Below the pieces are notes generated by a model that saw nothing but the letters and a program-made list of their open reading frames with translations, had not been told where the DNA came from and did no database searches. The position numbers and the translations under genes were made by a program. Shown in pieces: positions 16,361 through 63,391 of a stretch of 64,000 nucleotides of DNA. This DNA is from Janthinobacterium agaricidamnosum (GTDB lineage: Bacteria; Pseudomonadota; Gammaproteobacteria; Burkholderiales; Burkholderiaceae_D): NCBI RefSeq assembly GCF_003667705.1, contig NZ_CP033019.1, forward strand, positions 2,852,001 to 2,916,000, given 5' to 3'. Each line of letters starts with the position of its first letter. The stretch's first letter is position 1.

Positions 16361-16481
16361 TTTTCAGTTAAACCGCTCACTTTTTATATAAAAAATAGTG
16401 TCACGCAAAAAATATGATTATTAAATTGCATCCTTACAAACACTTCGATGCCTAAAATGCAAATTATCTGAACATCTCAAC

Positions 16482-16736
16482 CTATCTCAAGACTTTTCGA
16501 ACGATCTCATCAGGCTGTTCAAGATGGTGTAGACGTTGAAACACTGCCACCTTATGGCCGGACATTGGCGCATGTTCAGCGTCCTCATGCCAGTCGGTCA
16601 TCCAAACTTCTGACGATGCCACATTATTCGCCCAAAGAAGGTCAGCCAAGCGAACGGCATCAGTGTCCGATAGGCGAAGACCATCCTCGCGTACAGCAAT
16701 CAGCAAACCATCAGCAAAATAAATTTTGGTTCTCAT
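16482..16736 (-). CDS. Hypothetical protein of 84 residues
   Basis: Starts MRTKIYFADGLLIAVREDG and has a compact alpha/beta-looking sequence with DAVRLADLLWANN and a Trp/Asp/His-rich middle (WMTDWHEDAEHAP). I recognise no family. It lies 121 nt before the Fic gene start region on the same strand, in the AT-rich part of the island, and could be expressed with it. Coding potential is supported by length, an ATG and balanced composition rather than by homology. Confidence 0.5.
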   Translation of the reverse strand: MRTKIYFADGLLIAVREDGLRLSDTDAVRLADLLWANNVASSEVWMTDWHEDAEHAPMSGHKVAVFQRLHHLEQPDEIVRKVLR

Positions 16737-17201
16737 AAAAATCCGTTGGGAAAATACTCAATGATAGTTAGCTATTGTTTTGCCATCAGACAGATAGATG
16801 TATTTTAGACAATAATATGCACTCATAAATTTGCTTACCGTGCCGTGTGCACATCGTGAATTGCACAGATAAGTGAGCATTTCCCGTAGCGCTTGTGCTT
16901 CGATCTCTCTTTCGCCATCTTACCCTAATGAAGCGCTAGGTTCTTCAACTGCGACTCCATTTTCTCAACCTGGTAGCATTGACTTTTAGACTTAGGATCT
17001 ACTGTACACACAATAGTTTAACAATCTACAGCTTGAACTGCTCGATTTTTGACTGCGCGTATTTCATTTGTTTGCGCAATTCTTCAAGAATCTCTTTCTA
17101 GGCATATACGAAAATATGCAAGGTACTGCTCTATACGCCGACATAATAATTTTATTAAAAATACCAATTGTAGTGACAAGCCGTTACTTCGTATAGCTTC
17201 C
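16737..17201. other. AT-rich gap with no gene recognised
   Basis: About 465 nt after tniQ on the island. It contains scattered short words such as AATATGCA and ATATGCAA that weakly resemble the repeat next to tniA, but no copy with more than about half the positions matching. No plausible open frame with a ribosome-binding site was found. If the transposon were limited to the tni genes its left end should be here; I cannot place it. Confidence 0.35.
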
Positions 17202-18617
17202 TTAATGTTTCTTTTTTTTGCGCCACCATTTTAACAAGAGCAAACCATCTTCAGTCTTAGCTAAATGAATCGCACCTCCTTGAGGCGGACAGTTTTCTGG
17301 ATCTTCGCCGCACTCAATATCGTCCAGCCAATCGAATAGTGAATCGGAAAAGGATTCCACTTCAAATTGTGTAATATTTTCTAGCACCAAATTAATAAAA
17401 GGAGTTCCGATCCACTCCATGTAGGGTAAAAAATTAGGGGAAAAGTAAAAATATTCATCAGGAGATGAATTCAATTTCATATTAAATTTCACTAGACCTA
17501 TTTCATTTAATTCTTTGGCATATTTTATGTATTCAAGACGTTCTTTATAAGATTTTCGATCGGATAAAAAATCAAGTCGCAACCCCACAGCAAGCTCAAA
17601 TTCCTGACGAGCAACATCATATGGACAGGTTATTTGCCAATGTGGCCAGTGATTCGGAGATACACCAATCCAATGCGTTCCGAAAGAAACCACCTCCCGC
17701 CCCCATTTGCAATGGCATTTTGGATGACGCTTATCTAAGGCCTGACGCACAAGGTTGATATTTTCAGTAAAAGGAAAATGTTGCGAAGAATATGCGGCCG
17801 CACATTTATAAAACATCCACAGTAGATCGATATTTAGATCGGAAATCCTTTCGAATTCTTCCTTAGCTTGAATCGGAAAATGCATTACCTCCACTTTCCA
17901 GCCCTCCTGCACATCAGTAAACAGCGGAGTCAAGGCTTCTGGAATATGTTCAAGGGCACGAACCATTCCCAACAACTGAGCATTGTCATGCGGCCGAGGG
18001 GGTCTAGTGTTAGTGCAATACCAAAATTCTCCCTGATCAAATTGCTTTGCCACTTTAATGACACGAGGCATCCATTCTGCGAGCGCTCGGAAGCACTCGT
18101 AAGATTCCGGAAAAAAAGGCTCCGGACTTGAAGCTGGCCAATATGGGCAGGCCGTCTGCATCAGCTCCAGCAACGCTTGGCCGCGACGCACCTGAATTTT
18201 TGTATAGTCCTTTCCGGCGCAAGTACTGTGCAATGGCGTCTGATGGAAAGGGCATCGTGCCATCCAAGGTTGCTCATGTAAGTAACTGTGGTAGCCGATT
18301 TTCGAACATTCTGCACAGTAGCGTAAGGAATAGCGCGGCAATTGATCAACGGAGCTCAGATAAATATTATACGGCAATGAAATCTCCATATTGAGTACAC
18401 TTTTGGTGACTTGAATATCCTCTCCCAGTATTTCGTTAATCCACCTGATATCCACATCATCGAGGGAAAAACCCGCTTCAAGATGGCCACGAAAGAAACT
18501 ATTACATTGTTTCAAATCGATTCCATTTAGTACGGAAAAACGAGTCGCTAGTGAAATGAATGACTCATAAGGTCGCAAATTTCCTTTCCACCAGTTTACG
18601 GCTGGAAAAGATTTCAT
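17202..18617 (-). CDS. tniQ: TniQ/TnsD-type target-selection protein
   Basis: 471 residues from the ATG directly after the tniB stop (TGA-T-ATG); a longer in-frame start would overlap tniB by 59 nt. The TniQ zinc-finger region is visible: LRYCAECSKIGYHSYLHE followed by ARCPFHQTPL (Cys-x2-Cys, later Cys-x2-His), after an N-terminal SLATRFSVLNG segment. TniQ proteins bridge the AAA ATPase (TniB/TnsC) and the target site, and the C-terminal part (about 200-471) probably reads the target. The length exceeds the 405-residue TniQ of Tn5053 and is closer to TnsD-like proteins. Low GC sets it apart from the metal genes. Confidence 0.8.
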   Translation of the reverse strand: MKSFPAVNWWKGNLRPYESFISLATRFSVLNGIDLKQCNSFFRGHLEAGFSLDDVDIRWINEILGEDIQVTKSVLNMEISLPYNIYLSSVDQLPRYSLRYCAECSKIGYHSYLHEQPWMARCPFHQTPLHSTCAGKDYTKIQVRRGQALLELMQTACPYWPASSPEPFFPESYECFRALAEWMPRVIKVAKQFDQGEFWYCTNTRPPRPHDNAQLLGMVRALEHIPEALTPLFTDVQEGWKVEVMHFPIQAKEEFERISDLNIDLLWMFYKCAAAYSSQHFPFTENINLVRQALDKRHPKCHCKWGREVVSFGTHWIGVSPNHWPHWQITCPYDVARQEFELAVGLRLDFLSDRKSYKERLEYIKYAKELNEIGLVKFNMKLNSSPDEYFYFSPNFLPYMEWIGTPFINLVLENITQFEVESFSDSLFDWLDDIECGEDPENCPPQGGAIHLAKTEDGLLLLKWWRKKKKH

Positions 18618-18618
18618 A

Positions 18619-19587
18619 TCAACCAGCAGTCGCAATGATTCGCATGTGGTCCGAGTAGTTGACCTTGGCAAGCTCATTTAGCCAGCTTTCATATGATGTA
18701 GTTACGTTCCAATCTTCGCCGTGTGATAGGCGGCTTAATATCTCTTCCACTGTCCTCGCTATATGCTGCATCGGAAATTCCGTATAATTTTTTACGGATG
18801 CAGGACGTAGCTCAATCAGTGCTCGCCATAAGTATTCAGCACAGTCAACAAGGCGCTTTCCCTGAGCAAATGAGGTCGGGGCGAAACAATTCAGGAATGA
18901 TATCCCACTACCTGCTGGCCATTCGGAATCCACGTCATAGTTATTGAGGACATATCGAATCTCCTCTAGTGTACGAATGCCATGGAAGCGAGCGTGTGCG
19001 GCCATAAATCTGGCAGCAATATGTGCATTTCCGGTGCTAGCTAAGTATTCGTGACGATAACCTAATTGATGCGATCCTATTGAGAATACACTCAGAAGAA
19101 TCCCACTGTAATCCAAACGATTTTGCAGACCGACTAGCCACTTCCATTCATGCAGCGTCATTTCCTGGGCCTCATCGATTACTAGTACTACATAGTTTCT
19201 TCCAGCATTTTTGGCTATCGAAATGAATCGCTGCAGGCACAGATACGCTCCTTCAGTTTTTTTTGCTGGCTTACGTGGATCAACGAATTGAAAATTAGAA
19301 GCTACCAATAATTGATGCCAGAATGCTGCTTCGGTTGGCAATGAGTCTGACCTATCCCAGATAATAAGCGGAACAATGGCACCGAAACGCTCAGCCAATA
19401 CGTCTGCGAGATACCAAATGATTGCACGTGTCTTCCCCAGGCGCGATGCTCCATAAATGTATCCTCCCGGACGCTGCTGATCTATCCAATCACCTATCTG
19501 AACGGTCATCTCGTGTATGGGTTGGGTGTAGACCGCGTATTGCTTGGTAAAAATGCAATGATCTGGATCAATGTGAGATGCGCGCAT
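18619..19587 (-). CDS. tniB: TniB/TnsC-type AAA ATPase of the transposition module
   Basis: 322 residues. Walker A YGASRLGKTRA near residue 46, Walker B YVVLVIDEAQEMT near 133, and a following sensor-like LLSVFSIGSHQ. This layout is that of TniB/TnsC regulators, which assemble on target DNA in an ATP-dependent way and activate the DDE transposase. The start is 2 nt after the tniA stop and the stop is 1 nt before tniQ, so tniA-tniB-tniQ form one tight operon. Pairing of a TnsC-like ATPase with a TniA-like integrase and no TnsA is Tn5053/Tn402-like. Confidence 0.85.
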   Translation of the reverse strand: MRASHIDPDHCIFTKQYAVYTQPIHEMTVQIGDWIDQQRPGGYIYGASRLGKTRAIIWYLADVLAERFGAIVPLIIWDRSDSLPTEAAFWHQLLVASNFQFVDPRKPAKKTEGAYLCLQRFISIAKNAGRNYVVLVIDEAQEMTLHEWKWLVGLQNRLDYSGILLSVFSIGSHQLGYRHEYLASTGNAHIAARFMAAHARFHGIRTLEEIRYVLNNYDVDSEWPAGSGISFLNCFAPTSFAQGKRLVDCAEYLWRALIELRPASVKNYTEFPMQHIARTVEEILSRLSHGEDWNVTTSYESWLNELAKVNYSDHMRIIATAG

Positions 19588-19589
19588 AG

Positions 19590-21638
19590 TTATTTCCGTA
19601 TCGAGGTCATACGGCGGAGCAGTATGGTAGTTTGCGCACTGAGATTATTGCTTGATGAGGCCCGTGGAGTCCGAGGAGCATTAGAAGATTTAACATCATC
19701 TTGAGACGGAGAGGGCCTTACACGGTCCTGCGCGGCCTTCAGCAAACTTTCGCCAACAAACTGATCTGCGGCTTGTGTCAATATTCTGCGTGACTCAAGA
19801 TATGCTGGGTGAATTGGCAGCTTATTACTTGGCTGGTGTTCGACAAAATTTATGAATGTGTCAATTGCGTCGCCTCCCGCTGGAATCAAGAATTGTCCCC
19901 GCGCCTCCGCTTGGCAGACCGCTTTACGAACTGACAGGCTATGCGGTGAAATATGCCATGGCGGTGATGCGCGGAGAATTCCTAATGGCATCCCGTCTAG
20001 CGTCGAAGCTAATGCTACGCGGCCATCGTCCTCTTTATGGTTAATAACCCAAATATCGGTGCCTACAAGATCCTGACGATTTTGCAACATCTCATTTGTG
20101 TAGTGCGCATAGTAAAACTCGACAAATGCTGCTCGTCCAACTTTGGCTCCACCACGAACCCGGCACTTTTTCCTAATACTAAACAGTGATGCGACCACAT
20201 CAGGTTCAACGTGACGCATCGGTTGTTGGGAGTGTTCAAACAGGAACTTCGCGTAGTTCAGCGGAGTTTTTCTGCCAATACCTTTGTGCGGATGCGCATT
20301 GTAGTTAGCGATTAGTACGTTCAGGAGTTCTTCAGCGTACTCGTACGAAAAACAAGACGTGATAGCCACCGTATCAGGATCACGCCCCTTTCGATCAGCA
20401 GCTTTAGCACCAGTAGTATTGGATAAACGTTGGAACCCATTGCCAGCTAGGTTCCGGAAAAAAGTTTCAATATAAGGTCGGTCGTCCAAACCCCGCTTAA
20501 CAGAAAAGGAGTTTTCCGGTTCCAGTAACACCGACCCAACTGCGTCTTTCAGTGCGCCCCTTACGCGAGTGCAAACTTCTGCCAATGCCCCATCAACGCT
20601 GGTTTCATCCCAGCAAAGACCTACAAAGTCTTCCCCCATCGTTGACAACAGCCCTGCTCCTTGCACATAAGGTTCCTTGGAAAACGACACCGGGCGAAGA
20701 TGCCACTTAGTAAGAGCACCCTTGATCGCTCGCATCACATCATCGGAAGATACTTCTTTCCTCAGGCTGAAGTAGTAGCCAATAACGGCGCGGGATACTA
20801 CCTCTACCAGCACAATGACCCAAAGTCGATATACGATACGCTCCCTGCTCTCCCCAGAAATATCTGGTATCGATACGCAAAACCGGCCATCAAGCTTATG
20901 TGCATCCATTTCAATCCGTTGCATGAACCGCATAACTGGACGGTTAGAGCCATCTCCAGTCTTAAGCTTGCGCACAAGATTTTCTCCGCCGGCATTATTT
21001 GCCAAGGCTTTTACATCAGATGCAAGAATTTTGTTGATATATCGTCGGACCGAATAATAAGCAGTACTACTGGTATTGAAAGGCCATTCACCTCGTTGTT
21101 CGTAGCCAAGACTTCGCAACTCATCAAGAAACCAAGTGCAGTGCCTAGTCACGGAACGTTTTATTTCGACTAATTTCCCTCTACCTGGCACCGCTTTGAT
21201 CCGCTTCTCAAACCTTAGCCTTAGGTCAGGGTGAGCATCCAGCATTGTATCCATCGCACCGGCACCACCAGCCCCGAATTGATCGAGTTGGATTTTTTTT
21301 CGTCGCTTGTATGATCGTATTCGGAGGTATGGAATTAGCGCACGCCACCCATATGGTTGACCATCGACATGAATGGCTAGACAGCGTTCCCGAATCAGTC
21401 TATATGCTTGTTTCGCTCCAAGTGAGGTAACTCGCTTTATTTGAGCGGCATCCGCCCCCTGCAAATAAAGCGTGACTGCGGACTTCCGTGCGAAATAAAG
21501 GGCACAATCTTCGCTGTTCAGCGCCCCCTCATCAGGAGTAGGCCACTGGCTCGCGTCTATACATTCGCCGTTAATTACGCGAAATGAGAATTGAGCCTTG
21601 ACCTCCCCACCCTCTGGCATCCCAGCTCCCGAGATCAT
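19590..21638 (-). CDS. tniA: TniA/TnsB-type DDE transposase
   Basis: 682 residues, normal for TniA/TnsB. The RNase H-fold catalytic core is recognisable by MDAHKLDGRF (first Asp, about 255), GLCWDETSVDGALAEV (second Asp, about 355) and RPYIETFFRNL (Glu, about 405), followed by the NYNAHPHKGIGRKTPL signature of Mu/TniA enzymes. N-terminal HTH domains bind the element ends. The ATG at 21636-21638 opens the frame; an inner ATG at 21620 has a better GGGAG site. The repeat cluster 70-200 nt upstream is where TniA-binding end repeats would be expected. No resolvase gene (tniR) and no tnsA is seen. Confidence 0.85.
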   Translation of the reverse strand: MISGAGMPEGGEVKAQFSFRVINGECIDASQWPTPDEGALNSEDCALYFARKSAVTLYLQGADAAQIKRVTSLGAKQAYRLIRERCLAIHVDGQPYGWRALIPYLRIRSYKRRKKIQLDQFGAGGAGAMDTMLDAHPDLRLRFEKRIKAVPGRGKLVEIKRSVTRHCTWFLDELRSLGYEQRGEWPFNTSSTAYYSVRRYINKILASDVKALANNAGGENLVRKLKTGDGSNRPVMRFMQRIEMDAHKLDGRFCVSIPDISGESRERIVYRLWVIVLVEVVSRAVIGYYFSLRKEVSSDDVMRAIKGALTKWHLRPVSFSKEPYVQGAGLLSTMGEDFVGLCWDETSVDGALAEVCTRVRGALKDAVGSVLLEPENSFSVKRGLDDRPYIETFFRNLAGNGFQRLSNTTGAKAADRKGRDPDTVAITSCFSYEYAEELLNVLIANYNAHPHKGIGRKTPLNYAKFLFEHSQQPMRHVEPDVVASLFSIRKKCRVRGGAKVGRAAFVEFYYAHYTNEMLQNRQDLVGTDIWVINHKEDDGRVALASTLDGMPLGILRASPPWHISPHSLSVRKAVCQAEARGQFLIPAGGDAIDTFINFVEHQPSNKLPIHPAYLESRRILTQAADQFVGESLLKAAQDRVRPSPSQDDVKSSNAPRTPRASSSNNLSAQTTILLRRMTSIRK

Positions 21639-21708
21639 GTCTAGTCAGTTATCAAAATAGCATATGCAACAACTGAGGACAAGAAGTTTGATAGGTGTTC
21701 GGATTAGA

Positions 21709-21834
21709 TACAATTTTATGCAAAATGCATGCAAAAGATACAGTTTTATGCAAATTTTTTTTGCATAAAACTGTACTTATAGACGATCTCGCTAGAGGGC
21801 AGTAGCAGGAACATTATTATGCAAAATGTCGACA
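21709..21834. repeat. Cluster of four 16-bp repeats beside tniA (candidate transposon end)
   Basis: The word TACAGTTTTATGCAAA occurs at 21739-21754 and inverted at 21760-21775 as a perfect 16-bp palindrome around five T residues; a copy with one change (TACAATTTTATGCAAA) lies exactly 30 nt upstream at 21709-21724, and a weaker one (about 13 of 16) at 21810-21825. The cluster ends in TGTCGACA (21827-21834). Spaced repeats next to the transposase gene are the expected TniA/TnsB binding sites of an element end; alternatively this is an operator for tniA. Confidence 0.6.
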
Positions 21835-22002
21835 TTCGGCCCTACCTGCACATGACAAGAAAAGTAGCTAGGCGCTTGAAACTTTTACCATCGTCACTAA
21901 GCGCCGCCTCGCTCTCATGAATGCCTAAAAAAACAAAAATACGAAGAATGTCTCAGTCATTGGGAAGAAATTGAATGGCCAAGAACATTTACAACAACCT
22001 AC

Positions 22003-24582
22003 TTATGCGGCAGCCAACTTACGACGATTAGTAAAGTCAGTGCGCCACTGCTTAAGTAATTCAATATCTGCTTTCAACTCAACTGCTTCTGGAATGAAAG
22101 CCGGAATTTCTTGAGATTGACTATGCTCATAAAATGAATATTTGGTCATCAACCTATCAATAAGTTGGCAATCGTCTGACTCAATAGAGTGTATTGTCCC
22201 AAGCCGATTATCTGTAGTTATGCTTCTACGATGACGTTTAACCACTTCGTTAAAAAGATCGTCTTCGACAGTGCGTTCCAATAACTTCCGGAAATCGCTG
22301 CATATCCCCTGTGCTAAGCCGCGATACATTTCAGCGCCACTCTCTTCACCCACCTTTTTTGCCGCATCAATTCGAGTTATTAGTATATTATTTGCCTTCT
22401 CAGTCTTACCGTTCCATACTGCTTGCTCAACTGGATGACCAGCAGCACCAGAAAATGCCTCAATGCATAGCTGAGTGAAATTTCTCTTTTTCCAATCTTC
22501 ACCTATTTTCTTCGCTGCATCATCCAATAATCCATACAAGGAAAGTCGATGTGTAAACACCAAAACTTGTCGACTTTTTGCTAGTTCAGCCAGACGCACA
22601 GCAACGCTCCATTCAAAATCATGATCCAAGGAGGAAATAGGATCATCAAAAATAAATGGCGCAATTTGCGGCTTATCTGCCACATCTGCCAAAAATGCCG
22701 CAAGTGAAATAATTCGTCTTTCACCTTCACTCAATATGGCCTCTGGCATTGTTTTATCGTTTTTTACGCCCTTTAATCTTAGCTGATGATATACCTTGGC
22801 TCGACTAGTACGACTTTTTATAAGCTCAATTTGAATTTTCCGTGCTCCTAGTGCTTGCAATTCTTTATTGAAGCGTGCCACATATGCTTGAGTAATGAAC
22901 TTCTCTGATACATCACTTGCTTTAATGGAAATTTTCCTTGAATTAGTCAGCGTCTTCCAAGAATCGTAGATTTTAATTTTCTTCAGTCGTTCAACTTCGA
23001 CAAGCACAGCCGCAGCTTGTTGTGATATCCATTTTTGTGCTTCCAACTCTAACTTGGCATTTTCAGCTTTAACTCGATCAAATCCCATTGCATCTATATC
23101 ATAGCGTTGAGCATCCAACTCTAACTGCAAAATATATTCACGAAGTATACGTAAACTCTCAGTCTGCTCATCAACGGGAAAAGCCATTTCAGTTGACTCA
23201 TCGGTCAATAAACTACTTCGAACCTGCATAACCATAGTCCAAAACTTGTAAAAATGCTGCTTCCACTCTTCAGTATTAACGCCAGCGGCCTCACATTGAG
23301 TATCAATCTGCTGTTTATTCAAAGCAACAGGAAGATCTTTTAATATATCACCATAAAGCGCCTCTGCAGCCTTAGCCTCGGATTCTAACTTGCTTTGTAC
23401 AAAGTTCTCGAAATCCTTGAGCCGTTGTTGGGCATCGGCGTTTAACTCTTGATGACACAGAACACAAAACGCATCATTAGTTACTGGAAAAACCTGTTGC
23501 GGATATGCCGTTGCAGAATATGATTTAGCTGCGCTCCAAAGGGCGCGCCAGGTGGCTGACCCTACACCATCTAATCTGGCGGACACTACTTGTGCCGCTT
23601 CAGTTGCAATTTTCCGTTTAGCCCATGCGTCGTTCCGAAGCATCCTCACAAGTTCAACATGAGCCAAACCATAATTTTTCGCAGTGTGATTCAGGGTGGT
23701 GATTAGCTGCTCCACTTGCAATTTTGTTGCCCTCTTTTGCCTCGCAAGTGCTGCTGGATCGACTACCTTTAAGCGCTCAACAAGCTCATCGAGATTTTTA
23801 CCATCCAACTCTGTCCAATTAAGCAGCTTTTTGAGCGCTAATTCTTTTATACCATGGAGCGCTACATACTGTTTTCCACGCTCAGTTGCAAGAAAAGCAG
23901 CAGGAACTACAGGAAGAACACTAACCAATCGGTCCTGCTCTGCTTGTAACGCATCTCTTATCCTATCGCTTGTGGAGGCCAACGACTCAAACATGGCAAC
24001 CATAGGTGGCGTGTATGCAGCGGCATTTTCTTTGCTTAAATAATGCCCGGCTTCATCGCTGTCAAAAATATCAGTGGCGCGAATATTCTCAATTACATCA
24101 CCATTGGCAATCCATTCGGTTACAGTATTTTCTTCGCCATATTTATAAGAAATTGTGCATTTTTTATCGATAGGTGCAGGCTGAAACACATTATGCTTAA
24201 GGTCAATTGCCCTAGGTTTTCCAGATGCTCTTTTAATAATTCGAGAGTAACTAGATTTCCCCGATCCATTGTGACCATAAATTATAGTTAAATTTCCTGG
24301 CCCAAAAACTAATGGGTGTCGCGGGCTGAGATTTTCGATGCCGACAACGCTACCTATAGAATTCAAACGAAGCTCATGCCCGACATCCCTTCCTACAATC
24401 AGTCCTTCGAATATCCGATTTTTAGTAACGATCTGCCCAGCAGGAGTCTTGAGAATGGCCGTAATTTCCGACATGTCGTCATCACTGAGTACACCTTTTC
24501 TCATTAGCCTGTCAGCTGCTACTTGAAGCCATTCCTGCTGCGTCAAAAGCCATTCATGAACGTCCTCTTGAATTGTCGACAT
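22003..24582 (-). CDS. SMC-like AAA_13 ATPase with zinc hook (RloC-like)
   Basis: 859 residues from MSTIQEDVHEWLLT, chosen for its AAGGAA site 6 nt upstream over a GTG 72 nt earlier. Walker A IIYGHNGSGKSSYSR (about 101-115), long coiled coils interrupted by FCVLCHQEL (Cys373 and Cys376), a zinc-hook-type CxxC, then the ABC signature region LSEGERRIISLAAF and Walker B PFIFDDPISSLDHD with a following FTHRLSLYG. The C-terminal 150 residues contain FRKLLER and, downstream, histidines, an Arg-x3-Glu...His spacing reminiscent of the PrrC/RloC anticodon-nuclease site. It may be a tRNA-cutting or DNA-damage-sensing defence protein. It lies directly outside the tniA-side repeat cluster. Confidence 0.8.
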   Translation of the reverse strand: MSTIQEDVHEWLLTQQEWLQVAADRLMRKGVLSDDDMSEITAILKTPAGQIVTKNRIFEGLIVGRDVGHELRLNSIGSVVGIENLSPRHPLVFGPGNLTIIYGHNGSGKSSYSRIIKRASGKPRAIDLKHNVFQPAPIDKKCTISYKYGEENTVTEWIANGDVIENIRATDIFDSDEAGHYLSKENAAAYTPPMVAMFESLASTSDRIRDALQAEQDRLVSVLPVVPAAFLATERGKQYVALHGIKELALKKLLNWTELDGKNLDELVERLKVVDPAALARQKRATKLQVEQLITTLNHTAKNYGLAHVELVRMLRNDAWAKRKIATEAAQVVSARLDGVGSATWRALWSAAKSYSATAYPQQVFPVTNDAFCVLCHQELNADAQQRLKDFENFVQSKLESEAKAAEALYGDILKDLPVALNKQQIDTQCEAAGVNTEEWKQHFYKFWTMVMQVRSSLLTDESTEMAFPVDEQTESLRILREYILQLELDAQRYDIDAMGFDRVKAENAKLELEAQKWISQQAAAVLVEVERLKKIKIYDSWKTLTNSRKISIKASDVSEKFITQAYVARFNKELQALGARKIQIELIKSRTSRAKVYHQLRLKGVKNDKTMPEAILSEGERRIISLAAFLADVADKPQIAPFIFDDPISSLDHDFEWSVAVRLAELAKSRQVLVFTHRLSLYGLLDDAAKKIGEDWKKRNFTQLCIEAFSGAAGHPVEQAVWNGKTEKANNILITRIDAAKKVGEESGAEMYRGLAQGICSDFRKLLERTVEDDLFNEVVKRHRRSITTDNRLGTIHSIESDDCQLIDRLMTKYSFYEHSQSQEIPAFIPEAVELKADIELLKQWRTDFTNRRKLAAA

Positions 24583-25131
24583 TAAATTTCCTTTTAATAT
24601 ATTCCACGGATTGGCATAAAAACTTATTTCATCTTTATTTTCTAAATACGACACCTATGCTATCAGCAAAAAAATCCAAGATCATAAGATAGATAATCCA
24701 ATTATCACAAATCGTAAAATTATAAAGAAATATATGGAAATGGTGGTTTTGTTGCAACAATTTATTGCATTATTGAGATTTATATACATCTATACAATTG
24801 TTAAAAAGTTACTTATTGAAGTCACCTCGCTTAGCCCGTGTGAAGTATAACTTGCAATTAAGTTGATTTTGCGAGTTGTTTTGCACTGCTAACACTATCC
24901 TGTAGTCGGGACTCTAAACATAACATAGCAAGCCACTTATCTCGGTGGTTTCAAGTACGGAATTGCGAATGCCGCATTAGGGCGGTTTCGGCCTAGTGTG
25001 AAGATGCGTGAGTTTTACAGATGAGCAAGCTGCTATCCTAAGCGCTGTCAGCCGAGGTCGGCCAGAAGCTGCCGGTTAGCGGAAATAGAGATATCGACTT
25101 TCGAGCCTTGATCGAAGATGGAATGGAAAAA
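24583..25131. other. AT-rich gap with a short helicase-like remnant
   Basis: About 550 nt. The first half is strongly AT-rich and must hold the promoter of the ATPase gene. At 25008 a GTG opens a 24-codon frame reading SFTDEQAAILSAVSRG before a stop, resembling the extreme N-terminus of UvrD-type helicases (FTxEQxxAI), and may be the stub of a lost gene. Nothing else is recognised. Confidence 0.3.
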
Positions 25132-25842
25132 ATGTCTACTAAATACGAGGCCGTGAAAGCCGCTGTTGACCAAGCCGTAGAACGATATGCTTCATCGGAC
25201 ACGTTACGTGCAGCGGTGCAGTTTGTGCCTGTCGTGGGTGGAGCAATCGATACGATATTATCGGGACGGGGATCACGCCTTCAGCTTGCGCGCTTGGAGC
25301 GATTTGTCGGCCAGCTTCATGATCGCCTGCTTCACGTAGAAGCAGGCAGCATCAACCTAGACGGTGAAGACTTTATTGATTTCATGATTTCCTGCTTGGA
25401 AAAAGCTTCACGATCGCGCACGCCCCAAAAATCCCAGCGTTTTGCAGAAATCGTTGCTACTCAAGTTTCGGATGTACGGCCTTGGGATGAAGCAGACATG
25501 GCGGTGCGACTGTTGGCCGACCTTGAGGACATTCACATGAGTATACTGGGCGCTGCCTTGGCTGCGCCCGAGGGCATGAACTCATTTTCTGGAATAAAAG
25601 TCATAGCATTGAAAATCCAGGCAGGCGATACCCTATTAGATGGACTTTCGGCACCGCTGTTGAACGAACTGGGCAACCAGTATTCTTTGATCTCTGTACG
25701 CTTAGCATGTTCTGAACTAGTCGCTAGGGGCCTGCTACATGATGAAGGTGTAGGACGATGGGACACCGTCGCGATGACATACTTTGTAGCAACTGATCTC
25801 GCGACTTGGCTGAAAAACTGGACCCAGCCAACCGGAACGTAA
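25132..25842 (+). CDS. Hypothetical protein of 236 residues
   Basis: Start taken at MSTKYEAVKAAVDQ; ATGs 12 and 24 nt upstream are possible. The first 70 residues include an amphipathic/hydrophobic stretch AAVQFVPVVGGAIDTILSGRG followed by LQLARLERFVGQLHDRL, and the rest is helical with a C-terminal part resembling a winged helix (YSLISVRLACSELVARGLLHDEGVGRWDT). I recognise no family. Its base composition is intermediate and it lies at the right margin of the island, between the RloC-like ATPase and the S41 stub, so it may be an accessory or defence-linked gene. Confidence 0.65.
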   Translation: MSTKYEAVKAAVDQAVERYASSDTLRAAVQFVPVVGGAIDTILSGRGSRLQLARLERFVGQLHDRLLHVEAGSINLDGEDFIDFMISCLEKASRSRTPQKSQRFAEIVATQVSDVRPWDEADMAVRLLADLEDIHMSILGAALAAPEGMNSFSGIKVIALKIQAGDTLLDGLSAPLLNELGNQYSLISVRLACSELVARGLLHDEGVGRWDTVAMTYFVATDLATWLKNWTQPTGT

Positions 25843-57964: not shown

Positions 57965-57993
57965 TTGACGCTTATTTATTCCGGCGCTAATAT
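57965..57993 (+). promoter_or_regulatory. Sigma-70 promoter of the peptide operon
   Basis: TTGACG (57965-57970) and TAATAT (57988-57993) with exactly 17 nt between them, a near-consensus vegetative promoter. The first precursor gene starts 64 nt downstream of the -10 element, leaving a leader of about 57 nt. Confidence 0.75.
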
Positions 57994-58057: not shown

Positions 58058-58246
58058 ATGCAAAACCAATCCAAATTGTTCGCATTCAAACTGGCTGAAA
58101 AACAAGTTCAAAAACAGGCGGCGCCCGCCACCGTCTGGAAAGTGCGCGACGGCGTCGCCGTGGCCGGCTGCACCGCCGTCGGCACCAATGATCAATATCG
58201 CGACTCTTCGCGTCTCAAGCCGAACGACAGCGGCCAGTATTGCTGA
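58058..58246 (+). CDS. RiPP precursor candidate peptide 1
   Basis: 62 residues, AGAGGA site 8 nt before the ATG. The N-terminal half has the leader-like helix KLFAFKLAEK (6-15), shared with the second peptide and comparable in kind, though not in sequence, to the PFFARFL helix by which microviridin leaders bind ATP-grasp ligases. Position 27 begins an invariant block WKVRDGVAVAGCTAV (27-41). The rest is rich in Asp, Asn, Ser, Gln, Arg and ends in Cys62; the only other Cys is Cys38. No hydrophobic signal peptide, so export would need the ABC protein encoded downstream. The 5' leader is partly copied before peptide 2, showing tandem duplication. Confidence 0.85.
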   Translation: MQNQSKLFAFKLAEKQVQKQAAPATVWKVRDGVAVAGCTAVGTNDQYRDSSRLKPNDSGQYC

Positions 58247-58261
58247 TTTCCGGCACGCCAT

Positions 58262-58282
58262 AACCCCGCCCGGCGCGGGGTT
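58262..58282 (+). terminator. Hairpin between the two precursor genes
   Basis: AACCCCGC and GCGGGGTT form a perfect 8-bp stem with a 5-nt loop, 15 nt after the peptide 1 stop. No T-run follows (GCATATATT), so it may protect the peptide mRNA or partially terminate. Confidence 0.6.
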
Positions 58283-58427
58283 GCATATATTCCCCATATT
58301 CAAACCGGCGCCGTGCGGCGCGGATTTTCCGCGCGCAATGAATATATGAACCCCTCTCAATTGGAGATGCCATTCTTTAAAGCAGTTATCGGTAAAAATC
58401 GAAACATAACCATTAACAGAGGATCTC

Positions 58428-58613
58428 ATGCACGATAAAACCAAGCTGTTCGCATTCAAACTGGCGGAAAAAAAGGAAGAGGAAAAACCGGCGCGTCCTG
58501 CGCCCTGGAAAGTGCGCGACGGTGTCGCCGTGGCCGGCTGCACGGCGGTCGACAGCGAGGAACAATACCGCTATTCGCGCGTCGGCTCGAGTGACGGCGG
58601 AGAATTCTGCTGA
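58428..58613 (+). CDS. RiPP precursor candidate peptide 2
   Basis: 61 residues, AGAGGA site before the ATG. Identical to peptide 1 over KLFAFKLAEK (6-15) and WKVRDGVAVAGCTAV (27-41), with the same spacing; the linker differs (KEEEKPARPAP, charged). The C-terminal half differs but keeps QYR (46-48), Ser50, a central Asp/Ser/Gly run and a terminal aromatic-Cys (Phe-Cys). So constrained positions are the leader helix, the block with Cys38 and the terminal Cys61, while the variable acidic/Ser/Thr part would carry specificity. Sequence between the genes includes a 5' copy (TAACCATTAACAGAGG) of the leader upstream of peptide 1. Confidence 0.85.
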   Translation: MHDKTKLFAFKLAEKKEEEKPARPAPWKVRDGVAVAGCTAVDSEEQYRYSRVGSSDGGEFC

Positions 58614-58628
58614 TCGCTGCGCCAACTG

Positions 58629-58654
58629 AAAGCCTTGCCGCGGCAAGGCTTTTT
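58629..58654 (+). terminator. Intrinsic terminator between precursor 2 and the enzyme genes
   Basis: AGCCTTGCCG and CGGCAAGGCT are perfectly complementary over 10 bp (effective CCGCGG tip), followed by TTTT, 17 nt after the peptide 2 stop and 38 nt before the ATP-grasp ATG. Read-through past such a hairpin would give many precursor transcripts per enzyme transcript, as in other RiPP operons. Confidence 0.8.
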
Positions 58655-58691
58655 CATCTTCCCGATTTTCCGCTACTGCAGGCTCCCCGAC

Positions 58692-59705
58692 ATGCATAAA
58701 AAGGTATTGATTATCAGCCATAGCGGCGATCTGCACGCCGACCTGGTGGCAACGATTCTCGCCGACCGCGGCCATGCCCCCTTCCGTATCGATCTCGACG
58801 CCTTTCCCCGCGATTACCAGCTGTGCCAGCGCATGCTGGGCGGCCAGGCCAGCGCGCGGCTGCGCCGCCTGCCCGACGGCGACTGGCTGGACCTGCGCCA
58901 GGTGGGCGCCGTCTGGCTGCGCAAGGCGGCCGACTACGCCTATGCCAGCGCCGACCTGACGCCGCAGGAACGCGCCTATGCCCGGCTGGAAACGGAACAA
59001 GCCATCTTCAGCGTGCTGTACAGCCTCGATTGTTACTGGCTCAGCCACCCGCTGGCCCTGCGCGGCGCCCAATGGAAGGGCGAACAGCTGGCGCGGGCCG
59101 CGCGCATGGGTTTTCGCGTGCCCGCCACCGTGATTACCAACGTGCCCGACGACGTGCGCGCTTTCCGCGCCACCGTCGGCGGCCCCATCATTTTCAAGAG
59201 CATGTCCACGCCCAGCCTGGCAGCCGAAGCCGTCGAAGACGTGGACAGAATCAGCGCCGGCCTCGGCACCACCATCGTCGACGACGCCATGCAAGGCAGC
59301 CTGGACGCCGTTAGCGAGCTGAGCTGCCAATTCCAGGAATATATCGCCAAGCAATATGAATTGCGGGTCACCGTAATCGGCCAGCAACTGTTTGCCGCTC
59401 GCCTGTATTCCCAGGACGATGCGCGCACGGCCATCGATTCACGCGACATGTCGGCCCCCATCCGCTATGAAGCCGCGACCTTGCCCGATGACATACGGCA
59501 GCGCTGCCTCGCTTTCGTGCACAGCTATGGGCTCGAATATGGCGCGCTGGATCTCATCGTCACGCCCGAAGGCGAATATGTTTTCCTGGAAAACAATCCT
59601 GTTGGTCAATTTCTATATGTGCAACAACTGGTGCCCGCCTTGCCCCTGCTGGAAAGCGTGGCCACTACCCTGATCGAAGGAGCCTTATGCCGCAGCCAGA
59701 CCTGA
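58692..59705 (+). CDS. ATP-grasp ligase, peptide-maturase type (MvdD/graspetide synthetase-like)
   Basis: 337 residues from MHKKVLIISHSGDLHADLVA; a TTG start 57 nt upstream would lie in the terminator. Layout is that of MvdC/MvdD and other ATP-grasp maturases: a pre-ATP-grasp domain (1-130, with DGDWLDLRQVGAVWLRKAAD), an ATP-binding lysine region GGPIIFKSMSTPS (about 160-175), and C-terminal metal-ligand motifs YGLEYGALDLIV and FLENNPVGQFLYVQQ (about 300-312). Such enzymes form omega-ester or amide cross-links between acidic and Ser/Thr/Lys side chains of a precursor. It overlaps the protease gene by 19 nt. It is the likely modifying enzyme for both peptides. Confidence 0.85.
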   Translation: MHKKVLIISHSGDLHADLVATILADRGHAPFRIDLDAFPRDYQLCQRMLGGQASARLRRLPDGDWLDLRQVGAVWLRKAADYAYASADLTPQERAYARLETEQAIFSVLYSLDCYWLSHPLALRGAQWKGEQLARAARMGFRVPATVITNVPDDVRAFRATVGGPIIFKSMSTPSLAAEAVEDVDRISAGLGTTIVDDAMQGSLDAVSELSCQFQEYIAKQYELRVTVIGQQLFAARLYSQDDARTAIDSRDMSAPIRYEAATLPDDIRQRCLAFVHSYGLEYGALDLIVTPEGEYVFLENNPVGQFLYVQQLVPALPLLESVATTLIEGALCRSQT

Positions 59706-60565
59706 GCCAGATTCCCCACCAGTTGCGCGAACTGGAACTGGCGCGCGACAGCCGTGCCATCGTCCTGGCCGCCTCGCACCTGGACATGGAACTGCTGCCC
59801 GCCCTGTATGAACTGTGCCAAGACATCGGCCCCGTGGCGCGCCTCGACGTGGTGCTGCACGGACGGGGCGGCATCGTCAACGCGGCGCGGCGCATCGCCC
59901 TTCTGCTGCGCCGGCATGCGCGCCACCTGAGCTTTATCGTGCCCTTCCACTGCCAGTCGGCCGCCACCTTGCTGGCCCTGGGCGCCGATGAGATCATCGC
60001 CGGCGACCTCGCCCTGTTCTCGCCCATCGACCCGCAGCTCGATGGCGCCGACGGCGGCTCCATGTCCAGCCTGGACATCAAGGTCTTCGGCGACATGGCG
60101 CAGCAGTGGTTCGGCGTCGATGCCGGCGAAGCGCGCCAGCAATCCTTGTCCCTGCTGTGCGGCAGCATCTTTCCCCCGTCCCTGACGGCCTTTTACCGCA
60201 CCACGCTGGAACTGGCGCAAATCGGCGAGGAATTGCTGGCGTGGCAATTGCCCGATGCCACGCAAGAGGCGCGGCGTGCCATCGTCGCGCAATTGGTGAC
60301 TGGATACCACTCGCATAACTATGCCTTGACGCGCGAAGAGCTGGCCCGGCTGGGCTTGAACATGGCGCGCGATGCCCAGGCTGAACGGCTGGGCTGGGCC
60401 ATCTCGACCCAGTTGCAGGCGCACATAGGCGGCGCCCTGCGCAGCGCCCCCGACGAACCGTGGAACGATGCGCTGCTGGCCTCGCGCGACGGCGTGCAGC
60501 TGCGGCGCCAGCGTCCGGGCGGCTTCGCACCGCTGTGGACCACGCAAACGGGGGCAGCATGCTGA
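59687..60565 (+). CDS. Clp-fold serine protease of the SDH type
   Basis: 292 residues from MPQPDLSQIPHQLRELELAR, GAAGGAG upstream, inside the end of the ATP-grasp gene. It belongs to the SDH/SppA-like Clp-fold serine proteases: LDVVLHGRGGIVNAARRIAL (oxyanion loop), PFHCQSAATLLALGADEIIA with the nucleophile Ser91 and LFSPIDPQLDG. Cytoplasmic, no signal peptide or membrane helix. In the middle of a RiPP-like operon this is an unexpected protease; removal of the leader from modified precursor is the simplest proposal, degradation of unmodified precursor another. I know of no characterised RiPP system with this enzyme. Confidence 0.85.
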   Translation: MPQPDLSQIPHQLRELELARDSRAIVLAASHLDMELLPALYELCQDIGPVARLDVVLHGRGGIVNAARRIALLLRRHARHLSFIVPFHCQSAATLLALGADEIIAGDLALFSPIDPQLDGADGGSMSSLDIKVFGDMAQQWFGVDAGEARQQSLSLLCGSIFPPSLTAFYRTTLELAQIGEELLAWQLPDATQEARRAIVAQLVTGYHSHNYALTREELARLGLNMARDAQAERLGWAISTQLQAHIGGALRSAPDEPWNDALLASRDGVQLRRQRPGGFAPLWTTQTGAAC

Positions 60566-61068
60566 CGGCATTACTGTCTGATATTGCGCGCTGCTGCATC
60601 GCCTTGCTGCTGCTGGCGGCCAGCGTGGGCAAGCTGCGCAGCTACGGGGAATTTCGCGGCAACCTGGCCACCTCGTTCGGCCTGCCGCCCGCCGCCGCTG
60701 CCTGGGCCGCGCCAGCCCTGGTGGCGGCAGAACTGCTGCTGGCCGGCTGGCTGCTGGCCGGCGGCGCCCGGCTGCCGATGCTGCTGTCGTTATTGCTATT
60801 GAGCACCCTCACTGCCGTGCTGGCCTGGCGCTACTTCACGCACAGCGTGGTGCGCTGCAGCTGCTTCGGCGAAGCGGCGCGGCCCGTCTCGCAGTACGAC
60901 TTGCTGCGCAACGCGCTGGCGGTGGGCATCAACGGCAGCTACTTTGCGCTGGCGCAAGATGCGGCCTTGCCCGTCGCCACCACTGTATTGGCGGCCGGCT
61001 TGGCGGCCATCGCCTGCGTGGCCATCATTTCCCTGCACGACATCGCCACCCTGGCAAAGGCCGGATGA
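60559..61068 (+). CDS. MauE/DoxX-like membrane protein
   Basis: 169 residues starting inside the protease stop region (7-nt overlap). Four membrane segments, typical of MauE/DoxX: MLTALLSDIARCCIALLLLA, LVAAELLLAGWLLAGG, MLLSLLLLSTLTAVLAWR and a last one after residue 130. Between them lies a VRCSCFGEAARPV loop with a Cys-x-Cys pair, as in MauE, which with MauD is needed for disulfide formation in the periplasmic methylamine dehydrogenase small subunit. It is overlapped by the MauD-like gene (ATGA), so the redox pair acts as one unit; substrate in this locus is probably the exported peptide with its two Cys. Confidence 0.85.
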   Translation: MLTALLSDIARCCIALLLLAASVGKLRSYGEFRGNLATSFGLPPAAAAWAAPALVAAELLLAGWLLAGGARLPMLLSLLLLSTLTAVLAWRYFTHSVVRCSCFGEAARPVSQYDLLRNALAVGINGSYFALAQDAALPVATTVLAAGLAAIACVAIISLHDIATLAKAG

Positions 61069-61622
61069 TGGATGCCGCGACCTTGCAACTGGTGCTGGCG
61101 GCACTGGCGTTCGCCATCGCCGGCAATCTCTGGCTGACCCTGGCCGTGCTGCGCGCCAGCCGCCGCGAAAGGCTGGCGCCCACGGCGCTGGCGCCGGGCG
61201 AGCCCCTGCCCGCCGTGCCAGCCCGCCCGCTGACTGGCGGCGCGCGTTTCCAGCCGGGCGCCCCCGGCCAGGCGGCCGTGCTGCTGTTCCTCGCCAGCCG
61301 CTGCCCGAAATGCGCGGATAAGCTGGCCGGCATCGAACGGCTGCTGCCGTTGGCGCGCAATGCGGGCCTGGCCGTGTGGCTGCTCAGCGAAGAACCGGCC
61401 CGCCGGCTGCGCGCCTTCCTGCCCGGCGACGCCTTGCGTGCGGCGGCGGCGCGCGTCAGCCTGCGCGACTACCGGCGCGTCAATCCCCAAATGAGCTCGC
61501 CGTCCTATGTCTTTGTCAATCACCAGGGACGCGTGGAAGCGGCCGGCCTGATCGGCGACGCAGACTGGCTGGCCCTCGTCGGACAATTGAACGCCGAACC
61601 GTCACAGGAGCGCGCCGCATGA
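61065..61622 (+). CDS. MauD-like thioredoxin-fold protein
   Basis: 185 residues with one N-terminal membrane helix (about 6-27, LVLAALAFAIAGNLWLTLAV), then a periplasmic thioredoxin fold: PGQAAVLLFLASRCPKCADKLAGIERLLPL with the CPKC active site (about residue 82), and NPQMSSPSYVFVNHQGRVEAAGL with the cis-Pro loop. Resembles MauD and other TlpA-like thiol-disulfide proteins. It starts at 61065 or one codon later and overlaps both neighbours by 4 nt. It probably oxidises or shuffles disulfides of a substrate handed over by MauE or the peptide itself. Confidence 0.85.
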   Translation: MMDAATLQLVLAALAFAIAGNLWLTLAVLRASRRERLAPTALAPGEPLPAVPARPLTGGARFQPGAPGQAAVLLFLASRCPKCADKLAGIERLLPLARNAGLAVWLLSEEPARRLRAFLPGDALRAAAARVSLRDYRRVNPQMSSPSYVFVNHQGRVEAAGLIGDADWLALVGQLNAEPSQERAA

Positions 61623-63391
61623 GCAATATCAACTTCGGCCCGCATTTTGAACGCCTGCGCCTGCTGTACCCCGTGCGCTGGCGCATTGCCGCCGGCCTGC
61701 TGTGCATGGCCCTTACCGTGGGCGCGCAGCTGGCCTTTCCGCAAGCCATCGCGTATTTCATCGACAACGTGACCGCCCTCACCCGGCACGGCGTCACGCC
61801 GGGCATGGTCGCCGCCATGCTGGCCTTCAGCGTGCTGTATGCGCTGGCCTCGGCCGCGCGCTTCTACCTGCTGCAATCGAGCGGCCACATGGTTGTCATG
61901 GGCGTGCGCCGGCGCCTGTTCGACGTGGTGATCAACCAGCCCATCGCCTTCTTCGACAAGCACCATGGCGGCGAGCTGAACAGCCGGCTCACGTCCGACG
62001 TGTCGGCCCTGCATGAAAGCCTGACCATCGGCGCGGCCAACGCCCTGCGCTCGCTGTGCGTGTTTTTGGGCGGCATCGCCATGCTGCTGCAGCTGTCGCC
62101 CATGCTGAGCCTGCCGCTGGCCTTGTTCATTCCCATCAGCCTGTATCTCGGCAAGTTATCCGGCAGCAATTACCGGCAGCGCGCGCGGGCCATTTCGGCC
62201 ACCCTGGCCGCCAGCGGCAAGGTGGCGCAGGAATATTTTGCCCATGCGCGCCTGGTGCAGGCGTTCAACCAGCAAGGCGGCGCCATGGCCCGTTACGCGC
62301 AAGCCATGCGGGAGCTGCTGGAGGTGTCGCTGGCCGGCACGCGGCTGCTGGCCGTGTTCCAGGGCGCGCAGGGGCTGCTCGCTTTTGCTGCCCTGCTGAC
62401 CACCCTGTGCTTCGGCGCCCACCTGATCGGCCAGGGCCGCCTGAGCGTGGGCGAGCTGACGGCCTTTGTCATCTATGCCAGCATGGTGACGGACACGGCC
62501 GGCTCCATCAGCGAGTTCTGGAACACCTGGATGCGCACCATGGGCTCGACCGACCGCATCTTCGAGATCCTGCGCAGCCACCGTGCCGTGCCCGAGGCGC
62601 CGCCGCAGCCGCCGCTGGCGGGCCACATCGCGCTGCGCGACGTGCGTTTTGCGTATCCCGAGCGCGTACAGGTCGCGGCGCTCGACGGCGTCAGCCTGTC
62701 CATCCGCGCAGGCGAAAAGATCGCCCTCGTCGGCGCCTCGGGTGCGGGCAAGTCCACCATCGCCAGCCTGGTGCTGGGCCACTACAAGATGGACGCGGGC
62801 AGCCTGCAATTCGACGGCATCGACGCGCAGGTGCTGGGCGTGACGCAGTTGCGGCGCCAGATGGCCGTGGTGGAGCAGGAGCCGGCCCTGTTTTCCGGCA
62901 GCATCGCCGACAATATCGCCTTTGCCGTGCCGGACCGGGTCGTGGCGCGCGAAGCGATGGTGGCGGCGGCGCGCCTGGCCCATGCCCACGATTTTATCGC
63001 GGCCTTTCCGGACGGCTACGACACCCTCGTGGGCGAACGGGGCGTGCAATTATCTGGCGGACAGAAGCAGCGCATCGCGATTGCCCGCGCCATCCTGCGC
63101 GCGCCGAAAATCCTGATTCTGGACGAGGCCACCAGCGCGCTCGACGCGGCCAGCGAACAGCTGGTGCAGCGCGCGCTCGACGCGCTGATGCAAGGACGCA
63201 CCACCATCATCATCGCCCACCGCTTTTCCACCATCGTCAAGGCCGACCGCATCATCGTCATGGACAAGGGCCGGATTTGCCAGCAAGGCACGCACGCCGA
63301 GCTGCTGCGCGCGGGCGGCCAGTATGCGCGGCTGATGCAGCAGCAGCTGTCGCAATTCCAGCAGTTGCATGACAGTACGGCCACCCTGTAG
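61619..63391 (+). CDS. ABC exporter, membrane-ATPase fusion
   Basis: 590 residues from MSNINFGPHFERLRLLYPVR (ATGA overlap with the MauD-like gene). N-terminal six-helix exporter domain (about 1-320, with VGAQLAFPQAIAYFIDNV and FDKHHGGELNSRLTSDVSAL) and a C-terminal ATPase: Walker A VGASGAGKSTIASLVLG, signature LSGGQKQRIAIARAIL, Walker B ILILDEATSALDAASEQ and H-loop IAHRFSTIV. No N-terminal C39 peptidase domain, so leader removal is not done by the transporter. It is the last gene of the peptide operon and the expected exporter of the processed product; lipid-flippase-like relatives exist. Confidence 0.9.
   Translation: MSNINFGPHFERLRLLYPVRWRIAAGLLCMALTVGAQLAFPQAIAYFIDNVTALTRHGVTPGMVAAMLAFSVLYALASAARFYLLQSSGHMVVMGVRRRLFDVVINQPIAFFDKHHGGELNSRLTSDVSALHESLTIGAANALRSLCVFLGGIAMLLQLSPMLSLPLALFIPISLYLGKLSGSNYRQRARAISATLAASGKVAQEYFAHARLVQAFNQQGGAMARYAQAMRELLEVSLAGTRLLAVFQGAQGLLAFAALLTTLCFGAHLIGQGRLSVGELTAFVIYASMVTDTAGSISEFWNTWMRTMGSTDRIFEILRSHRAVPEAPPQPPLAGHIALRDVRFAYPERVQVAALDGVSLSIRAGEKIALVGASGAGKSTIASLVLGHYKMDAGSLQFDGIDAQVLGVTQLRRQMAVVEQEPALFSGSIADNIAFAVPDRVVAREAMVAAARLAHAHDFIAAFPDGYDTLVGERGVQLSGGQKQRIAIARAILRAPKILILDEATSALDAASEQLVQRALDALMQGRTTIIIAHRFSTIVKADRIIVMDKGRICQQGTHAELLRAGGQYARLMQQQLSQFQQLHDSTATL

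Follow-up and report, generated by a model that had tools for sequence, protein, structure and literature searches.

Introduction

The closest described relatives of the operon reported here are the TIGR04187-type graspetides, such as rosaritide with its synthetase MirB, and the microviridins, which are made with MvdC/MvdD. These systems have a small precursor with a conserved aromatic or hydrophobic leader motif, an ATP-grasp ligase carrying a pre-ATP-grasp domain, a conserved hydroxyl and acid in the core, and export by an ATP-binding cassette (ABC) transporter. A further parallel is offered by sublancin-type glycocin operons, in which a thiol-disulfide pair, BdbA/BdbB, stands beside an exporter and the precursor of a ribosomally synthesized and post-translationally modified peptide (RiPP), with other modification chemistry and other redox proteins. 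Here we describe an operon in which two short paralogues are followed by five genes that overlap, all in the same direction, at positions 58058–63391 of a 64,000-nucleotide window (the whole stretch of DNA analysed, part of the 6.36 Mb single-contig genome of Janthinobacterium agaricidamnosum, NZ_CP033019.1). It has the features listed above for graspetides and microviridins but, unlike them, combines one universal donor/acceptor pair, set around a loop whose length varies, with two invariant cysteines, a MauE/MauD-like redox pair, an SDH-type protease and an exporter without a C39 peptidase domain, and its ligase scores below the family cut-offs.

Parts of this combination have been touched on before. 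A RODEO survey by Carter et al. (2026) added 19 graspetide groups to the previous 24 and mentions that more than half of the group 9 examples have a 'serine proteinase' (PMC13097080). Since this wording would fit an SDH proteinase, part of the operon family may already have been binned in group 9; the main text of the survey mentions neither a disulfide nor a cysteine (PMC13097080). Makarova et al. (2022) list 18 families near graspetide ligases and state that the identity of the enzyme cleaving graspetides was still unknown; SDH, Clp, MauE, thioredoxin and Janthinobacterium are absent from their main text (PMC8939145). In Streptomyces, the candidate clusters of decRiPPter have MauE, and in one family also MauD, beside predicted cysteine-containing precursors, but these precursors have at least eight cysteines, no SDH protease is named with them in the text drawn on here and the ATP-grasp candidates are treated there as other families (PMC7794033). 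The text on the ThfA precursor describes removal of one cysteine to prevent disulfides (PMC13003496). Our literature search returned no paper joining graspetides with MauE, graspetides with Massilia, serine dehydrogenase proteinase with ATP-grasp, or ATP-grasp with Janthinobacterium and RiPP. The kind of ligase is already known; as far as the literature searched extends, what is new is its combination with MauE/MauD, the cysteine pair and a single donor/acceptor pair, which was not found there.

We propose, with about even confidence, that this is a graspetide-type operon whose product would carry an ester between an invariant Ser/Thr and an invariant Asp and a disulfide between the paired cysteines, with leader removal by the SDH protease and release by the ABC exporter.

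Conservation of the operon

A sample of 392 genomes of the host's family was searched, and the best five to six candidates per genome were scored in each of the protease and ligase searches. The SDH protease search yielded 40 copies of at least 316 bits in 36 genomes (next best 69 bits), and the ligase profile search yielded 38 matches of at least 591 bits (next best 170 bits), all of them in these 36 genomes. Every one of the 38 ligase copies adjoins an SDH protease copy. Among the candidates scored, the remaining 356 genomes yielded no copy of either subfamily; 14 of them hold remoter ATP-grasps only and no SDH match. Within the genus, 11 of 39 relatives have a protease orthologue and a twelfth (G011) gave a remote match only; the seven named relatives at 86–95% protease identity are all Janthinobacterium.

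All 40 SDH loci contain a precursor and an ABC exporter gene, 38 contain the ligase and 36 contain both MauE and MauD, and in 36 the genes run from precursor(s) through ligase, protease, MauE and MauD-like protein to exporter. Two of the incomplete loci (L067, L069) consist of precursor, protease and exporter only, and two (L070, L071) lack MauE/MauD alone. Because each of the genomes concerned (G378, G393, G419 and G427) also holds a complete locus, the missing enzymes may act in trans, and L067 and L069 are apparent substrate-only satellites served in this way. Mirror-tree correlations among the five proteins were 0.94–0.97 over 36 loci (the overlong MauE of L066 and the truncated exporter of L023 included), which fits joint inheritance without separating it from species kinship. 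No further conserved operon member, such as an immunity protein or a regulator, was seen among the 15 flanking clusters of open reading frames listed, all of which come from seven loci of one genus.

The protease alignment was also run against the genomes of named species, which gave 51 loci; of these, 29 belong to the family already covered and 22 were examined. These 22 loci, 21 of them outside the family, are from Massilia (1), Luteimonas (1), Lysobacter/Lysobacteraceae (6), Bowmanella (1), Rheinheimera (3), Kangiella (1), Shewanella (3), Idiomarina (2), Pseudoalteromonas (1), Phenylobacterium (1), Parvularcula (1) and Altererythrobacter (1), which by their names we take to be beta-, gamma- and alphaproteobacteria. 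The ligase was found at all 22 (as a fragment in L116), precursors at 20, MauE and MauD at 20 (MauE weak in L124) and an ABC gene at 19. The precursors of L113 are broken, and L116 and L118 yielded none, the contig ending there. Thirteen of the ABC genes lie downstream on the same strand (at least 487 bits) and six on the strand opposite to the protease; given that strand and their lower scores (291–496 bits), some of these loci perhaps use another exporter. The Altererythrobacter genes stay together, although the protease is encoded on the strand opposite to all the others.

Because the gene set is kept across distant proteobacteria, a chance origin is excluded, and the operon is a real, portable module. 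The sequence-only reading from which this analysis started had placed the gene set correctly, with twin peptides of 61–62 residues, genes overlapping by 4–19 nucleotides and an ABC exporter without C39, and its description as a RiPP-type operon with a graspetide-type ligase, a dedicated protease, a redox pair and an exporter is supported. That reading had also staked itself on peptides and enzymes being syntenic elsewhere, as they are across the 40 family loci and the 22 further loci. Its term 'new RiPP pathway' was too strong, because the ligase is of a known graspetide-synthetase kind and a serine proteinase has been noted beside group 9 in the survey text cited above (PMC13097080), so that its interpretation as a whole is partly supported.

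Precursor peptides

The first precursor gene (58058..58246, + strand) encodes 62 residues with the leader motif FAFKLA, W27xxR30, A36-G37-C38-T39 and D57xG59xxC62. The second (58428..58613, + strand) encodes 61 residues of the same architecture, with C38-T39 and D56xG58xxC61, and the two peptides are 56% identical. In precursor 1, the codons at 58169..58174 (+ strand) specify C38, the predicted disulfide cysteine, and T39, the predicted ester donor, and the codon at 58226..58228 (+ strand) specifies D57, the predicted ester acceptor.

Two sets of precursors were compared: 97 genes from the 40 family loci, encoding 94 distinct peptides, and 32 more from 19 further loci (L113, L116 and L118 left out), giving 126 distinct precursors. 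All 94 family precursors have the layout leader FxF[KRQ][LV]A, linker, [WF]xxR, AGC[ST], loop and DxGxxC(A), with exactly two cysteines in each. The chain ends in Cys in 86 of them and in Cys-Ala in eight, the latter eight distinct copies all spread across the arrays L062–L065. The motifs [AG]GC[ST] and [DE]xGxxC are present in 126 of 126 distinct precursors; the claim that Cys38 and the terminal Cys are invariant therefore stands. The residue after the first cysteine is Ser in 53 and Thr in 73, and the acid of the last motif is Asp in 125 and Glu in one.

The loop between the conserved ends is 9–25 residues long. It is without further Ser or Thr in 36 of the 126, without further Ser, Thr or Lys in 28 and without a further acid in three, so that a single donor/acceptor pair is common to all. 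In the tandem arrays L062–L065, the 8–10 precursor paralogues per locus have a mean identity of 61–65% in the leader part, 71–76% in the W..AGC block and 29–35% in the loop. Such arrays resemble a fixed frame on which a diversified loop is displayed. A cut between AG and C would give a family core of 19–27 residues up to the last cysteine, with the paired cysteines at or near both ends.

At one of the three Shewanella loci (L113, 4457–4896, Shewanella sp. HN-41), both precursor genes are interrupted and the enzyme genes are found, unlike at the other two loci. Either sequencing error or decay may have broken the genes.

Ligase and protease

The ATP-grasp gene (58692..59705, + strand) encodes a ligase of 337 residues and opens the series of five genes, whose overlaps, in order from this gene to the ABC gene, are 19, 7, 4 and 4 nucleotides. 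The protein matches the MvdD pre-ATP-grasp family of Pfam (ATPgraspMvdD; 1.7e-16, 60.8 bits, cut-off 27). Its six closest matches in the PDB all bear ATP-grasp or Mdn/Cdn names (1e-39 to 3e-10), the best being 5ig8 (1e-39), 7mgv CdnC (2e-36), 5ig9 and 7m4s AMdnB. Residues D287, E300, N302 and R225 are invariant in the 20 sequences aligned of 38, and we take D287, E300 and N302 to be the metal ligands of the ATP-grasp fold. The best NCBIfam model is TIGR04187 (219 bits), to which the survey text assigns MirB, the characterised synthetase of rosaritide (PMC13097080). By sequence, the ligase belongs to the known kind of graspetide synthetases; it stands beside a precursor at 38 of the 40 family loci.

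The next gene (59687..60565, + strand) encodes an SDH-type, ClpP-fold serine protease of 292 residues, the predicted leader peptidase. It matches Pfam SDH_protease (PF01972; 5.3e-18, 65.5 bits, cut-off 31.3) and falls below the cut-off of the NCBIfam SDH equivalog NF047768 (77.6 of 250 bits). S91 and H210 are invariant in all 21 proteases aligned of the 40, and these residues, with CxS and SH motifs, are common to four of four generic SDH proteins; S91 would be the nucleophile. The structure was predicted with a predicted local distance difference test (pLDDT) value of 85, and a Foldseek search with the model placed a 1510-N protease at the top, with ClpP and SppA also among the matches. A serine-lysine dyad of the type in 1510-N or SppA was considered and rejected, since in the alignment of the 21 sequences no column that is invariant or almost so holds a lysine. 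The protease is probably cytosolic, because on the Kyte-Doolittle scale none of its 19-residue stretches exceeds 1.6.

Redox pair and exporter

MauE (60559..61068, + strand; 169 residues) is a membrane protein of its family by Pfam (PF07291; 8.3e-20, 71.8 bits, cut-off 27), and its CxCFG motif is invariant in the 14 sequences aligned of 36. The MauD-like protein (61065..61622, + strand; 185 residues) is predicted to be membrane-anchored; its model shows, with high confidence (pLDDT 92), a single helix followed by a thioredoxin fold. A CxxC motif (C80, C83) is invariant in the 16 sequences aligned of 36. The name MauD given in the sequence-only reading holds in respect of this fold and motif and fails on the family score, which is 15.8 bits against a TIGR02661 cut-off of 188.6. 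Among its fold neighbours are TlpA, a CcmG named a 'reducing oxidoreductase' and a protein of DsbE type.

That the pair is a remnant of a mau operon for methylamine dehydrogenase maturation was judged unlikely: a search of the window's genome with TIGR02661, which did not extend to other mau genes, gave no match at E 0.001, and the pair accompanies a graspetide-type ligase. In the genome of L116, MauE/MauD are on another contig. A second, remote MauE-like match of 31–33% identity lies about 3–6 kb upstream of the precursors at L049, L051, L053, L054, L057, L060 and L061, all of one genus.

The last gene (61619..63391, + strand) encodes an ABC exporter of 590 residues with ABC_membrane and ABC_tran matches; the C39 family is absent among its Pfam and NCBIfam matches. 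At L023 (6455–8225) the exporter gene is split over two reading frames.

Proposed pathway

In the pathway that we propose, the ATP-grasp ligase would bind the FAFKLA leader and activate the invariant Asp (Glu in one case) of [D/E]xGxxC, and the Ser/Thr beside the first cysteine would attack the activated acid, giving one omega-ester ring around the hypervariable loop of 9–25 residues. The SDH/Clp-fold serine protease would then cut off the leader, a step assigned to it because an exporter without C39 cannot perform it. Next, the MauE/MauD-like pair would join the two invariant cysteines at the loop ends as a disulfide, so that the loop is zipped twice, and the ABC exporter would release the finished product. 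That ligase and protease appear cytosolic and that the exporter has no peptidase suggests that the ring is closed and the leader removed before export. Within this proposal we infer the bonds, their order, the cleavage site and the membrane side of the redox pair. A broader claim, that these operons make up a distinct and widespread graspetide class in which a loop is clamped by a parallel ester and disulfide and which has its own Clp-fold leader peptidase, with the disulfide maybe formed in the cytoplasm and the peptide finished before export, is one that we hold tentatively, at somewhat less than even confidence.

Several observations weigh against the proposal or narrow its base. The ligase is below all graspetide cut-offs of NCBIfam (TIGR04187, 219 of 350 bits; TIGR04184, 194 of 475; TIGR04185, 168.8 of 425), and characterised synthetases 'typically install multiple linkages' according to the survey text, which makes a single donor/acceptor pair unusual (PMC13097080). 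The fold match of the protease is distant (best E 4e-5, TM-score 0.43 on query length). As the SDH protein was the query with which the loci were collected, its presence there is by construction, the ligase search being the independent check. The precursor hidden Markov model (HMM) was seeded with Cys-ending precursors, so that others could be missed, and the 32 extra precursors were gathered with a pattern that contains the motifs, HMM hits giving the same 32 in those 19 loci. The WxxR...AGC block is almost as conserved as the core motif, so that conservation does not point to a cleavage site, and outside the family a single precursor (L124) carries a third cysteine, located in the leader. 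A Lysobacter draft genome (L115/G432) has two-cysteine precursors, ligase and SDH protease, with no MauE/MauD match anywhere in the genome. Finally, the flank C-terminal to the anchor of the MauD-like protein is more positive than the N-terminal flank in 33 of 35 sequences (L066 left out), which by the positive-inside rule would put the thioredoxin domain in the cytoplasm.

This last pattern bears on the periplasmic location that the sequence-only reading had assumed, which is unproven. Proteins of the MauD family share the pattern, with an acidic or neutral N-flank and a positive C-flank in seven of the seven readable sequences (nine fetched, L129–L137; four of the seven are above the family cut-off). 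Remoter thioredoxin-like matches show the reverse in eight of nine readable sequences (11 fetched), the ninth not being judgeable, and the anchor is thus charged the opposite way to most ordinary TlpA-type proteins compared. This anchor pattern makes a disulfide formed on the cytoplasmic side possible, and the question of which membrane side MauD acts on may merit re-examination.

The ligase could instead link other residues, such as the acid after the invariant Arg or an acid of the loop, or form several different rings in the richer cores. Asp or Glu follows the Arg in 87 of the 94 family precursors, all 94 family loops hold at least one further acid and 90 of the 126 loops hold an extra Ser/Thr; but the acid after Arg is replaced by Gln, Val, Ser or Ala in seven of the 94, and the three loops without another acid and the 28 without another Ser, Thr or Lys leave a single universal pair, and we regard this alternative as doubtful. 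A reaction without any cross-link, in which the ATP-grasp enzyme would extend the C-terminal carboxylate by an amino acid or another group, would suit the 86 family precursors that end in Cys; it was judged very improbable in view of the eight that end in Cys-Ala, and the ligase resembles side-chain cross-linkers.

For the redox pair, a role as a reductase or isomerase of the CcdA/ResA-like kind, keeping thiols reduced or correcting mispairs, with another fate for the cysteines such as metal binding, has on its side the TlpA, CcmG and DsbE-type fold neighbours and the ambiguous topology. We think it rather improbable, since a cysteine at either end of a variable loop suits a clasp and MauE has been speculated to form disulfides, the text of the decRiPPter authors taking it as a modifier of cysteine-rich RiPP precursors (PMC7794033). 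The SDH protein might also be a self-protection protease or a sensor and not a leader peptidase, self-resistance being what Carter et al. suggest, in the text drawn on here, for such proteins of groups 7, 9 and 10, including the serine proteinases of group 9 (PMC13097080). Against this, it adjoins each of the 38 independently found ligase copies, it stays with precursor and exporter at L067 and L069, which lack the other genes, and the operon has no other peptidase, the exporter lacking C39; a protective role is accordingly unlikely in our view.

The presence of a dedicated protease of known fold beside each of the 38 ligase copies found in the family makes the question of leader cleavage directly testable. 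With up to ten tandem precursors and one ligase gene, the arrays resemble a natural library in which each loop is secured by two bonds, and this makes them interesting for peptide engineering.

Other features of the window

A promoter-like site on the + strand at 57965–57993 matches nine of 12 consensus positions. The sequence-only reading had called it near-consensus, but the data do not mark it as special: two such sites were found on both strands together, against 1.0 (standard deviation 0.9) in shuffled sequence, and the promoter was dropped as evidence since the count is about that of the shuffles.

Elsewhere in the window, positions 14798–25842 have a GC content of about 42–51% amid a region mostly at 59–68%. 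Minus-strand open reading frames in this stretch were taken by eye to encode Tn7-type transposase-like (19590–21638), ATPase-like (18619–19587) and TniQ-like (17202–18677) proteins, and a Fic-like protein (14798–16360) and a large AAA protein (22003–24654), also on the minus strand, are possible cargo.

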